Assembly (NCBI RefSeq): GCF_014193515.1
Contig: NZ_BLXX01000012.1
Span: forward strand, 1 to 64,000
Source of the DNA: Geomonas silvestris
GTDB taxonomy: Bacteria > Desulfobacterota > Desulfuromonadia > Geobacterales > Geobacteraceae
Reading direction: 5' to 3'
Length of the DNA stretch: 64,000 bases
Part shown: positions 52,375-55,209 of the stretch, in pieces
Position numbering within the stretch: position 1 is the stretch's first letter
Layout: each line of letters opens with the position of its first letter
Program-made: the position numbers and the translations under genes
The notes under the pieces: model-generated
The model's database searches: none
Told to the model about the DNA's origin: nothing
The model's input: only the letters and a program-made list of their open reading frames with translations

Positions 52375-54183
52375 CTAGGTGGCTACCCCCAGCGACCTCA
52401 GTTTCTGCTCGGTCGGGATCCCCTTCTCATCCCAGCCGCGCTCGCTGTAGTACTGCGGCAAGAGTTCCCCGAGGTGGGCGACCGACCCCTTCATGGGGCC
52501 GTCCGGCAGCGGCTCCTCCAGAAGCCGTTTGGGGAGGGTGTCCTGAGCCGGATCGATCCCCGCTTTCAGGTTGTAGACCCGCTCCAGGTTCCAGACCCGC
52601 TCGCCGACCTCCAGGAGCTCCGCTTCGCTGGCGGCCTTTCCGGTCGCCGCGCTGAAGAGCTTGCCGACCTGCGGGACGCCGATGCCGAAGGTGGTGAAGA
52701 GGCAGACCCCGGCGGAATCGACCAGGGCGGTGGCGTCCTGGAACACCTTGGCCCAGGCGGCCTTCCCCTCGAGGGCCTGCGGGTCGAGCTTCTCCGGGAC
52801 CCCCAGGATCTCCGGGGAGACCAGGTAACCGCGCACGTGGCAGGCGCCGCGGTTCGAGGTGGCATACTCGAGCCCCATCCCCTGGATGCCGCGCCCGTCG
52901 TAGGCCGGGAACTCCAGTTTCTTGACGCTCATGGAGTACTCGGGCGCTCCATAGCTTTCGGCGAGCCGGTAGGAGCCCCGCGCTATCTTCTTGCCGAATC
53001 CCTCCCCCTTCCCCGCCAGCTCGATGAGGCGCACCATCGCCTCGCCGTCGCCGAACCTGAGCGGCATTCCGGCCTCGGCCTCGCTGATCAACCCGCGCTG
53101 GAAGAGTTCCATGGCGCAGGCGACCGTGGAGCCGGCCGTGATGGTGTCCATGCCGTACTCGTTGCACAGGTAGTTGGCCTCGGTGATGGCCGCCAGATCC
53201 GACACCCCGCAGGCTGCCCCCAGCGCCCAGAGCGACTCGTATTCCGGCCCCTCGCCGCTCCCCGACCAGCGCGGGTCCGAGAGCTGGGTGACCCGGCCGC
53301 AGCCGATGATGCACCCCATGCAGCTCTTGTTGCGCTTCAGGTAGGTCTGGGCCAGCCGCTCACCGGAGATCTCCTCGGCCTGTGCGAAGGTCCCGGACTG
53401 GGAGTTGCGGGTGGGGAGCGCACCGCTTTGGTTGATCACGTTGACGAGGACCGCGGTCCCCAGGGCGGGGAGCCCCTGGCTGGTCACCGGGTGGCTGCGC
53501 AGCAAGCGGTAGCACTCGCGGGCCGCCTCGCGGAACCCGGCCGGGTCGGCCACGCCGACCCCTCCGGTGCCGCGCACCGCGATCGCCTTCAGGTTCTTGC
53601 TCCCCATCACCATGCCGACGCCGCTACGCCCGGCGGCGCGGTGCTTGTCGTTCACGATGCAGGCGTAGTGCACCTGGTTTTCGCCGGCCGGCCCGATGAG
53701 CGCCACCTTGGCGTCGCCGTGGAACTCCTTGCGGATCAGGTCCTCCGCCTCGCTCGTCGACTTGCCCCACAGGTGCGCGGCACCGGCGAGTTCCACCTTC
53801 TCGTTGTAGATCCTCAGGTACATAGGCTTCGGGGCCTTCCCCTCGACGATGATGAGGTCGAACCCGGCGTACTTGAGCTCGCTCGGGAAGTAGCCGCCGG
53901 AGTTCGAGCAGGCGATCGTGCCGGTGAGCGGCGACTTGGTGACCACCATGTAGCGCCCGTTGGCCGCGCCGTAGGTGCCGGTGAGCGGGCCGGTGGCGAA
54001 GATCAGCTTGTTCTGCGGACTCAAGGGGTCGACCTGCGGGTCGGTCTCTTCGCTGAGGTACTTGGTTGCCAGGCCGCGCCCCCCCACGTAGTCGCGGGCC
54101 CAGTCGTAGTTGAGCTCCTCGACCACGCAGGTCTGTTCGCTCAGGTTCACGCGCAGGATCTTTCCGTTCCATCCGTAGCCCAT
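52375..54183 (-). CDS. aor: Aldehyde:ferredoxin oxidoreductase (tungsten-dependent)
   Basis: 602 residues, typical of the AOR family. NSGGYFPSELKYAGFDLIIVEG and GAYxx-type patterns plus the cluster-binding CMGCIIGC (about 288-295) and Cys in DSAGVCLF (about 493), consistent with a [4Fe-4S] cluster next to a bis-pyranopterin tungsten site. It oxidises aldehydes to acids, or reduces acids when ferredoxin is strongly reduced. It starts one base past the ferredoxin gene. Preceded by TGAGGTGTGATATGG with GGAGGTG site. Confidence 0.95.
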   Translation of the reverse strand: MGYGWNGKILRVNLSEQTCVVEELNYDWARDYVGGRGLATKYLSEETDPQVDPLSPQNKLIFATGPLTGTYGAANGRYMVVTKSPLTGTIACSNSGGYFPSELKYAGFDLIIVEGKAPKPMYLRIYNEKVELAGAAHLWGKSTSEAEDLIRKEFHGDAKVALIGPAGENQVHYACIVNDKHRAAGRSGVGMVMGSKNLKAIAVRGTGGVGVADPAGFREAARECYRLLRSHPVTSQGLPALGTAVLVNVINQSGALPTRNSQSGTFAQAEEISGERLAQTYLKRNKSCMGCIIGCGRVTQLSDPRWSGSGEGPEYESLWALGAACGVSDLAAITEANYLCNEYGMDTITAGSTVACAMELFQRGLISEAEAGMPLRFGDGEAMVRLIELAGKGEGFGKKIARGSYRLAESYGAPEYSMSVKKLEFPAYDGRGIQGMGLEYATSNRGACHVRGYLVSPEILGVPEKLDPQALEGKAAWAKVFQDATALVDSAGVCLFTTFGIGVPQVGKLFSAATGKAASEAELLEVGERVWNLERVYNLKAGIDPAQDTLPKRLLEEPLPDGPMKGSVAHLGELLPQYYSERGWDEKGIPTEQKLRSLGVAT

Positions 54184-54184
54184 A

Positions 54185-54664
54185 TCACACCTCCCCCTGG
54201 CCGGCCTTCATGGTTTGCACGAACTTGAGCACCTTTTCCCGTTGCGGCGTGTCCTCCTCGGAGAACTTGAGGCAGCCGGTCGGGCAGAAGGCGACGCACT
54301 CCGGGAAGTCGTCCCCGCACAGGTTGCACTTGTCGGCTTTACCCTTCAAGGGGGCGTACTTGATCATCCCGAAGGGACAGGCCGACACGCAGGTGCGGCA
54401 ACCGACGCACTTAAGCTCGTCCACGGAGACCGTACCGGTCCGGGTATGCTTGGAGATGGCCCCCTTGGGGCACGCCTTCAGGCACCAGGGATCGTCGCAC
54501 TGCATGCAGGTCACCGTGATGAACTGTGCCTCCTCCAGGAAGACTTCGTTAACGATCCGGGACCTGCTGGGCGCGAACTCGCCGGTGTTCTTGAACGAAC
54601 AGGAGAGCTCGCAGGACTTGCAGCCGACACACTTGGACGGCTCGATGCGGATGAGCTTTTGCAT
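54185..54664 (-). CDS. Ferredoxin-like electron-transfer subunit of the AOR complex (AorA-like)
   Basis: 159 residues with sixteen or more Cys in four [4Fe-4S] motifs: CVGCKSCELSC, CMQCDDPWCLKACP, CVGCRTCVSACPFG and CNLCGDDFPECVAFC. It is the multi-cluster electron-transfer subunit of the HycB/DmsB type. In Aromatoleum AorABC the same order is found: polyferredoxin, AOR, FAD subunit. AAGGAGG precedes ATG 54664. A promoter lies 70 bases upstream. Confidence 0.93.
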   Translation of the reverse strand: MQKLIRIEPSKCVGCKSCELSCSFKNTGEFAPSRSRIVNEVFLEEAQFITVTCMQCDDPWCLKACPKGAISKHTRTGTVSVDELKCVGCRTCVSACPFGMIKYAPLKGKADKCNLCGDDFPECVAFCPTGCLKFSEEDTPQREKVLKFVQTMKAGQGEV

Positions 54665-54731: not shown

Positions 54732-54759
54732 AGTATAATTCCCGCCAACTACATGGCAA
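54732..54759 (-). promoter_or_regulatory. Proximal promoter of the AOR cluster
   Basis: On the minus strand TTGCCA (54754-54759) and TATACT (54732-54737) are 16 bases apart. Transcription would start near 54725, giving a 60-base leader to the ferredoxin gene. It lies downstream of the riboswitch terminator, so the operon could be expressed without the switch. Confidence 0.6.
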
Positions 54760-54916
54760 GTTTCCACCAGGGGGAAAAAGTCTGAGGGGAGTGTGAGAGA
54801 AAGACAAGAGAGAGCGTGCCGCTGGAAGAGAAGTGGCAGGGCCTGACACAACGCGCCGAGGGTGCGTCCTGAAAACGCCCTCTTCCAGCCCCCGCTGCCG
54901 CATCGCTGGCATAGAC

Positions 54917-54949
54917 GAGAAAAGGCCGCCCATGGAATCATGGGCGGCC
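54917..54949 (-). terminator. Terminator following the GEMM-I riboswitch
   Basis: GGCCGCCCATG / CATGGGCGGCC, 11-base stem with four-base loop, then TTTTCTCG. It starts 15 bases after the aptamer's closing stem and so forms its expression platform. Confidence 0.88.
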
Positions 54950-54963
54950 ATTCAGGAGATGTT

Positions 54964-55059
54964 GCCTGTTTCTTCGGGAGCTCGGCTACCTGAACATTTC
55001 GGGTCCGTCAGCTTTGTGCCCCTGGAATTTCTTCCAAGTTTACCGTTTCGGAAACAGGC
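54964..55059 (-). ncRNA. GEMM-I cyclic-dinucleotide riboswitch
   Basis: 96 bases on the minus strand. P1 is a perfect 9-base stem GCCTGTTTC / GAAACAGGC. Core motifs follow in the known order: ACGGTAAAC, stem-loop TGGAA-GAAA-TTCCA with the GAAA tetraloop, then GGGGCACAAAGC, then GACGGACCC-hairpin and finally GGTAGCCGAGCTCCCG. These match the GEMM-I aptamer (for example ACAGGGCAAACC, GAAA loop, GGGACGCAAAGCC and GGUAGC...). A sigma-70-type promoter starts it and a terminator follows. The Galpha-contact position appears to be G, favouring c-di-GMP over cGAMP, but that rests on a manual alignment. Confidence 0.88.
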
Positions 55060-55066
55060 TAAATAC

Positions 55067-55095
55067 AATATATGCCTTTCCAGAAAAGATGTCAA
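55067..55095 (-). promoter_or_regulatory. Promoter of the GEMM-I riboswitch
   Basis: TTGACA (55090-55095) and TATATT (55067-55072) with a 17-base spacer on the minus strand, essentially consensus. The predicted start, about 55060, is the first base of the riboswitch P1 stem. Confidence 0.85.
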
Positions 55096-55181
55096 AAAAT
55101 GTCGGGACGACACGGGGCGTGCGGCAGGGCCCTCAGGCCGGTACTTCCGGACACCGCAGCTCTCAGCCATGCGGCCGGCCT

Positions 55182-55209
55182 TTGAAACTCTTTCAGAACA
55201 AAGTATATT
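55182..55209 (+). promoter_or_regulatory. Promoter of the hypothetical gene at 55305
   Basis: TTGAAA (55182-55187) and TATATT (55204-55209) with a 16-base spacer. Start about 55216, giving a roughly 90-base leader. Confidence 0.55.

Follow-up and report, generated by a model that had tools for sequence, protein, structure and literature searches.

The window analysed here, the whole stretch of 64 kb, corresponds to positions 1–64,000 of the forward strand of Geomonas silvestris contig NZ_BLXX01000012.1. On its minus strand, a covariance search (cmscan, Rfam) places a c-di-GMP-I (GEMM-I, RF01051) aptamer at 54973–55054 with 47.2 bits against a gathering threshold of 35 (E 4.1e-6), in agreement with the GEMM-I assignment of the original prediction. 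The parts named in that prediction were also recovered. A consensus scan found the promoter TTGACA-17-TATATT (55095–55067, 11 of 12 positions), P1 is a perfect helix of 9 bp between GCCTGTTTC (55059–55051) and GAAACAGGC (54972–54964), and an 11-bp terminator stem (54949–54924) is followed by TTTTCTC. The proposed RNA length of 96 bases holds for the stretch from P1 to P1 (55060–54965) but not for the transcript, which is predicted to reach ∼140 nt with the terminator. The first downstream gene on the same strand is indeed the ferredoxin of an aldehyde ferredoxin oxidoreductase (AOR) operon (54185–54664, then AOR). The features of the locus are as follows.

55067–55095, minus strand: sigma70-type promoter TTGACA-17-TATATT of the RNA (consensus scan, 11/12)
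54917–55060, minus strand: predicted whole transcript of a free-standing GEMM-I RNA, ∼140 nt, with putative ends
55051–55059, minus strand: 5' strand of P1, GCCTGTTTC (sequence)
54973–55054, minus strand: c-di-GMP-I (GEMM-I) aptamer (RF01051, 47.2 bits)
55021–55038, minus strand: P2 hairpin with GAAA tetraloop (alignment, covariation)
54979–55013, minus strand: P3 with a variable distal hairpin (alignment, covariation)
54964–54972, minus strand: 3' strand of P1, GAAACAGGC (sequence, alignment)
54917–54949, minus strand: self-contained intrinsic terminator, 11-bp stem and T-run (scan; independent of the aptamer in folds)
54732–54759, minus strand: promoter-like site TTGCCA-16-TATACT of the ferredoxin–AOR operon, 3' of the RNA's terminator (10/12)
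54810–55177, no strand: stretch of 368 bases containing the RNA, opposite 86 bases without BLASTN match in sister genome L089 (BLASTN)
54185–54664, minus strand: 4Fe-4S ferredoxin gene, a neighbour judged to lie outside the RNA's function
52375–54183, minus strand: aldehyde ferredoxin oxidoreductase gene (AFOR_N, AFOR_C), a neighbour

Between 54400 and 55500, four promoter-like sites were found against a shuffle mean of 0.3; terminator-like sites numbered three against a shuffle mean of 1.0. The whole RNA folds at -58.8 kcal/mol (z -4.59), and none of 200 shuffles folded as well. A divergent promoter-like site, TTGAAA-16-TATATT, lies at 55182–55209 on the plus strand, in front of the gene on that strand which stands upstream of the RNA, and the sister genome retains this segment.

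The RNA resembles the known c-di-GMP-I riboswitch in its fold, its conserved core, the G at the selectivity position and the GAAA tetraloop of P2. It differs in that no expression platform built from aptamer strands is predicted, in that the transcript is free-standing, and in that no constant gene follows. The selectivity position, which we take to be G20 in Vc2 numbering, is A in 22 and G in five of the 27 RF01051 matches of this genome (G000; loci L001–L027); the G-type RNAs are L001, L002, L004, L005 and the window copy, L011. It was located by the Rfam alignment together with the description of J1/2 in the accessible text of PMC6274999. That text and excerpts of PMC7288161 describe the role of G20, and the latter report that c-di-GMP-I RNA becomes able to accept cGAMP on a G20A change. 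An A at this position typifies the cGAMP-binding subclass, GEMM-Ib, from which the window copy is set apart by its G. Of the 22 copies in the free-standing family described below, 21 carry G, and all 19 alignment rows have the conserved J1/3 C. Because its selectivity base is G, the window RNA is predicted to prefer c-di-GMP, and cGAMP was rejected as its ligand. The site was matched by RF01051 only and is no member of RF03167 (c-di-GMP-I-GGC), whose representative in G000 is L001. At the selectivity position, L003 of G000 has A in an otherwise Ia-like context, and the one A-type family copy, L071 (5052–5152), may bind cGAMP because of that base. The GEMM-Ib/cGAMP riboswitches of Geobacter (e.g. 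the pilM ON-switch, in excerpts of PMC9262584 and PMC6456294) belong to the same aptamer superfamily; they combine a selectivity A with a terminator made from aptamer strands, whereas the window RNA combines G with a separate terminator.

The ferredoxin gene lies on the RNA's strand about 255 nt downstream, and an aptamer followed by a terminator is the usual outline of a riboswitch; in Cd1-type OFF-switches the two can coexist (excerpts of PMC9262584). These points speak for an ordinary cis riboswitch, in which c-di-GMP would control the terminator at 54917–54949 and hence read-through into ferredoxin–AOR. The comparison of AOR loci speaks against it. Seven of eight AOR orthologs of the genus (L031–L037; proteins 93, 77 and 76% identical) were scanned, a second AOR copy in G020 being left out, and none of the seven has a GEMM RNA directed at AOR within ∼1 kb upstream; the two GEMM matches nearby (L034, L036) are both A-type and point away from the operon. 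The nearest genome, a sister with a 93% identical AOR (L031/L089), lacks the RNA. Its flanks align with the window at 89.3% over 2519 bases and 88.3% over 649, and at 54810–55177 its 86 unmatched bases stand against 368 in the window. The promoter-like site TTGCCA-16-TATACT, between the RNA's terminator and the ferredoxin gene, keeps both hexamers in the sister genome; in the six more distant orthologs the leaders differ, by eye, in the region of this site. The separate promoter-like site 3' of the terminator, the sister operon without the RNA and the lack of AOR-directed GEMM RNAs in the orthologs contradict the AOR control put forward in the original prediction, which was rejected on these grounds and on the structure considered below. 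With relatives of the RNA standing beside other or convergent genes as well, a cis riboswitch at this locus is improbable. Elsewhere in the genome, a paralogous AOR gene has a Moco/tungsten riboswitch just upstream (RF01055, 63.1 bits, L030:1342–1458), an expected control for an AOR-type enzyme.

The folding of the transcripts bears on the same question. In full-length folds, pairs between the aptamer and downstream sequence amount to 0.8–1.0 in all 22 family copies and correspond to the last P1 pair. Ordinary Geobacterales GEMM-I relatives, a set of 16 R1 matches (see below) from beneath the score gap that leans towards the same P1, form 8–22 such pairs in 14 cases, the two others being low at the lengths chosen (L119, 0.9; L125, 0.4). 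An exact CTGTTT, which is complementary to the 3' strand of P1 and would compete with it, follows within 70 nt in 13 of these 16 relatives (14 with near forms) as opposed to none of the 22 family copies. Among the other GEMM-I RNAs of G000, 24 of 26 could be folded to a T-run, with 14.3–29.0 aptamer-downstream pairs in 20 and 1.6–7.0 in L001, L004, L014 and L021, in a series that ended some transcripts early. Among its 19 family rows, L072, L076, L082 and L099 stopped at an early T-run short of the terminator; the full-length folds give the figure at the proper length for L072, L076, L082 and L137. Because these four RNAs, L119 and L125 are low, the measure does not separate every case.

Length-by-length folds, which are thermodynamic and take in neither ligand nor kinetics, give a similar picture for most of the family. 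The window copy and 16 others (17 of 22) never exceed 1.0 aptamer-downstream pair before the 3' arm of the terminator is reached, so that competition of aptamer strands with a terminator or antiterminator, as expected of a cis riboswitch, is predicted for none of them. L074, L082, L088, L135 and L137 show transient pairing of 2.4–8.5 pairs, and at some lengths their P1 weakens or disappears, with minima of 0.0–4.8 pairs. In the window copy P1 keeps 8.9 of its 9 pairs throughout the transcript lengths that were folded, and aptamer-downstream pairing never goes past the last P1 pair; the ligand-controlled transcription switch that had been proposed is therefore not borne out. An antiterminator spotted by eye between the 5' arm of the terminator and the 3' strand of the aptamer (GGUAGCC/GGCCGCC, UUCAGG/CCUGAA) proved unpopulated in the window copy and was discarded. 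Because the Cd1 OFF-switch likewise has a terminator that coexists with its aptamer, the argument against a switch rests on the missing antiterminator.

Relatives of the RNA occur well away from the AOR operon. BLASTN of 54900–55110 against 58 relatives found the RNA in other genera, where the operon does not accompany it; the matches have 72–98% identity over 61–146 query bases (G006, G038, G067, G036, G009, G008, G030, G029 and G003), and within the genus G027 gave a match. A covariance model, R1, was built from 19 copies, the window copy included, that had been collected through BLASTN searches with the window RNA as query and through patterns including the P1 motif. It scores 111.5 bits on the window copy (54965–55060), itself one of the 19 sequences, and finds 21 places with at least 83 bits in 15 of 141 genomes of the order, the next match having 64 bits. 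No place at this level beyond those 21 was found in 277 genomes of the class, and three in 395 genomes of the phylum are all among those already found. Within the genus, 2 of 19 genomes have an R1 match of at least 83 bits. A pattern scan of genome contigs returned 16 stretches, 11 of them with the RNA. Carriers include Geomesophilobacter sediminis, Pelotalea chapellei, Geotalea toluenoxydans, Geotalea sp. SG265, Geomobilimonas luticola and Geobacter sp. AOG1.

The family examined here comprises 22 copies, namely the 21 R1 matches of at least 83 bits (window copy included) and L086 (56.1 bits), which was included for its identical arrangement of promoter and terminator; below 57 bits, a minority of the R1 matches were inspected individually for this count. 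L137 and L099 are the same RNA. Carriage on mobile elements was rejected, as the 3' pattern had no match in viral contigs and a 102-base query of the RNA had none in plasmids and phages.

The window RNA and its 21 Geobacterales relatives have a compact design in common, consisting of a sigma70-like promoter, a GEMM-I aptamer and a terminator. All 22 copies have a promoter (at least 9 of 12 positions, spacer 16–17 nt) that ends 7–8 nt before P1. Random 60-mers from the window reach at least 9 of 12 anywhere in 11 of 2000 cases, and other GEMM-I leaders of G000 do so in 4 of 26, within 60 nt of the Rfam aptamer start and at 21–30 nt from it. Every copy has a hairpin (-16 to -28 kcal/mol) followed by a T-run that begins 33–48 nt past P1, and the predicted transcripts are 137–186 nt long. 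Judged by sequence, each of the 22 copies thus has its own promoter and intrinsic terminator, as a small RNA gene would.

The genes around the copies, called with a home-made codon-usage gene caller, are far less constant. At eight of 20 callable loci (L071, L072, L077, L079, L080, L134, L136 and L138) the closest gene downstream runs opposite to the RNA, and at the other 12 it runs in the same direction; after merging of orthologous sites, the opposite orientation is found at 5 of 14. The count leaves out L078, which has no downstream call, and L070b, whose nearest call is a same-strand repeat-like ORF. For the other GEMM-I RNAs of G000 the opposite-strand count is 0 of 22 callable loci (Fisher p 0.001; 0.005 with orthologous sites merged), these control loci having been called with 1.5-kb flanks and looser thresholds than the family loci. 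The control count leaves out L009, L012 and L013 (no call) and L005, the sole call of which is an opposite-strand ORF of 53 aa that is cut by the locus edge and lies 1339 nt away.

Convergent genes with Pfam support encode GH15 (L079, 24 nt), DNA polymerase X (L138, 39 nt), a DUF1349/Big_7 protein (L071, 144 nt) and an O-methyltransferase (L080, 672 nt). A further one, of an epimerase family, lies 628 nt from L072, past a 90-aa call, and the convergent proteins of L077 and L134 are alike and have no Pfam match. A DNA polymerase X gene flanks copies in two genera, L072 and L138, in opposite relations, one divergent and the other (L138) convergent, suggesting either a move of the RNA or a rearrangement of the region. 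Same-strand neighbours are also varied and include phosphoribosyltransferase, FAD-linked oxidase, MsrA, OtsB, nucleotidyltransferase, methyltransferase and FtrD-like proteins, with a DUF1440 match below the cut-off as the only one for L073. With different same-strand genes at the copies and the RNA absent from 7 of 7 AOR orthologs, the RNA does not appear as the 5' leader of a conserved regulated gene. Cis action is possible at L073, L074, L075, L086 and L088, where a same-strand gene begins at 15–57 nt. Cis control is also possible at three Geotalea copies (L082, L088 and L137), which precede otsB (trehalose-phosphatase) at 51–161 nt. After otsB, these Geotalea copies have a convergent gene for a GGDEF protein (Pfam support in L082).

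Convergent genes within 24–144 nt in L071, L077, L079 and L138, and an overlapping one in L134, would suit a ligand-controlled antisense RNA that acts by regulated read-through into its convergent neighbour. Such loci are, however, a minority to which the window does not belong, and no switch is predicted in any of these five copies; this role is very improbable.

The structure itself appears to be under selection. In the 19-row alignment 96.6% of cells pair. Both partners have changed in ten pairs (4.5 in shuffles), and 33 cells show such double changes (8.0 in shuffles); further pair types show no excess in this alignment (18 against 18.4). Each of the 19 rows forms all eight pairs of the modelled P1. 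The letters of P1 are frozen, seven of eight pairs being invariant and none changed on both sides, while P2 and P3 covary, with both-side changes in six of seven P2 pairs. Frozen letters might point to a ligand-modulated trans-acting RNA, in which the P1 strands or the A-rich linker would base-pair with an mRNA or be bound by a protein, their availability being set by c-di-GMP. The invariance is nevertheless partly built in, because the copies were found with the P1 motif, and ordinary GEMM-I relatives share the CUGUUUC P1 (L122 and L127 being left out of this comparison), where P1 also serves the terminator. P1 is, moreover, very stable. For the 14-nt complement of the 5' end, the RNA genes account for every perfect match in eight genomes, and other sites with a single mismatch number 14, compared with nine for a reversed control pattern; a trans target recognised by long 5'-end complementarity was rejected on the lack of such perfect matches. 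A trans-acting role ranks second among the readings considered, yet is unlikely.

The ordinary Geobacterales GEMM-I RNAs with the CUGUUUC P1 (L083–L085, L119–L133) have a P1 motif nearly identical to that of the family and are likely its ancestors. The family would thus descend from an ordinary switch whose competing terminator was replaced by an independent one. The same resemblance, the scattered sites and the small share of genus genomes with a high-scoring copy are consistent with a neutral insertion or with the relic of a former switch that has lost its original platform. Against this stand the retention of promoter, aptamer core and terminator in every copy over several genera, the compensatory changes in the structure and the negative searches of viral contigs, plasmids and phages, which leave neutrality or decay distinctly improbable.

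Taken together, the aptamer family, the promoter and terminator layout, the lack of a predicted aptamer-strand platform, the lack of a conserved downstream gene and the absence from the sister genome, all read from sequence, suggest that the window RNA is a free-standing small RNA gene with a c-di-GMP-binding product acting off the locus (probability roughly 0.7); its transcription, ligand binding, ligand identity and function are what we infer from them. Action off the locus is the most likely reading because promoter, aptamer and terminator are constant and the neighbour is not. RNA polymerase would start at the sigma70-type promoter immediately before P1 and make a GEMM-I aptamer closed by a strong P1. 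The terminator would then form with or without bound ligand and stop transcription, and the ∼140-nt product would bind c-di-GMP and act elsewhere in the cell.

As to how such an RNA might act, a c-di-GMP sink or buffer is the first choice, since the conserved content of the RNA is a ligand pocket; this is the likeliest mechanism but a tentative one, and the evidence so far is neutral between a sink and other off-locus roles. The wider proposal, that a Geobacterales family of constitutively made, free c-di-GMP aptamer RNAs buffers c-di-GMP and thereby lowers or smooths its free level, is somewhat more doubtful. Such buffering might, for example, prevent cross-activation of the cell's numerous cGAMP-type riboswitches by c-di-GMP.

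Riboswitch aptamers are generally regarded as mRNA elements. SreA of Listeria is a riboswitch-derived trans-acting RNA, a terminated riboswitch leader; the window RNA shares with it the idea of an aptamer RNA acting off its gene, but is an RNA gene without a constant mRNA. The GEMM-I RNAs discussed in the accessible text of PMC8835794, PMC9262584, PMC6456294, PMC7288161, PMC6274999 and PMC11109978 are gene leaders. By titles and abstract openings, no report of a free-standing GEMM-I RNA was found among the matches listed; the founding cGAMP-riboswitch papers of 2015 lie outside this scope, and an earlier mention is possible.

If the proposed reading is true, it can be misleading to take Rfam 'cis-reg' matches as a sign that the following gene is controlled; in the present case, doing so would wrongly link c-di-GMP with a tungsten aldehyde oxidoreductase. 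In Geobacter, c-di-GMP and cGAMP signalling are tied to electron transfer (excerpts of PMC6456294). A conserved family of whole small RNA genes made up of little besides an aptamer might provide an RNA sink for a nucleotide second messenger, and cells would also use second-messenger aptamers away from the locus that encodes them, as sinks, sensors or ligand-gated small RNAs.
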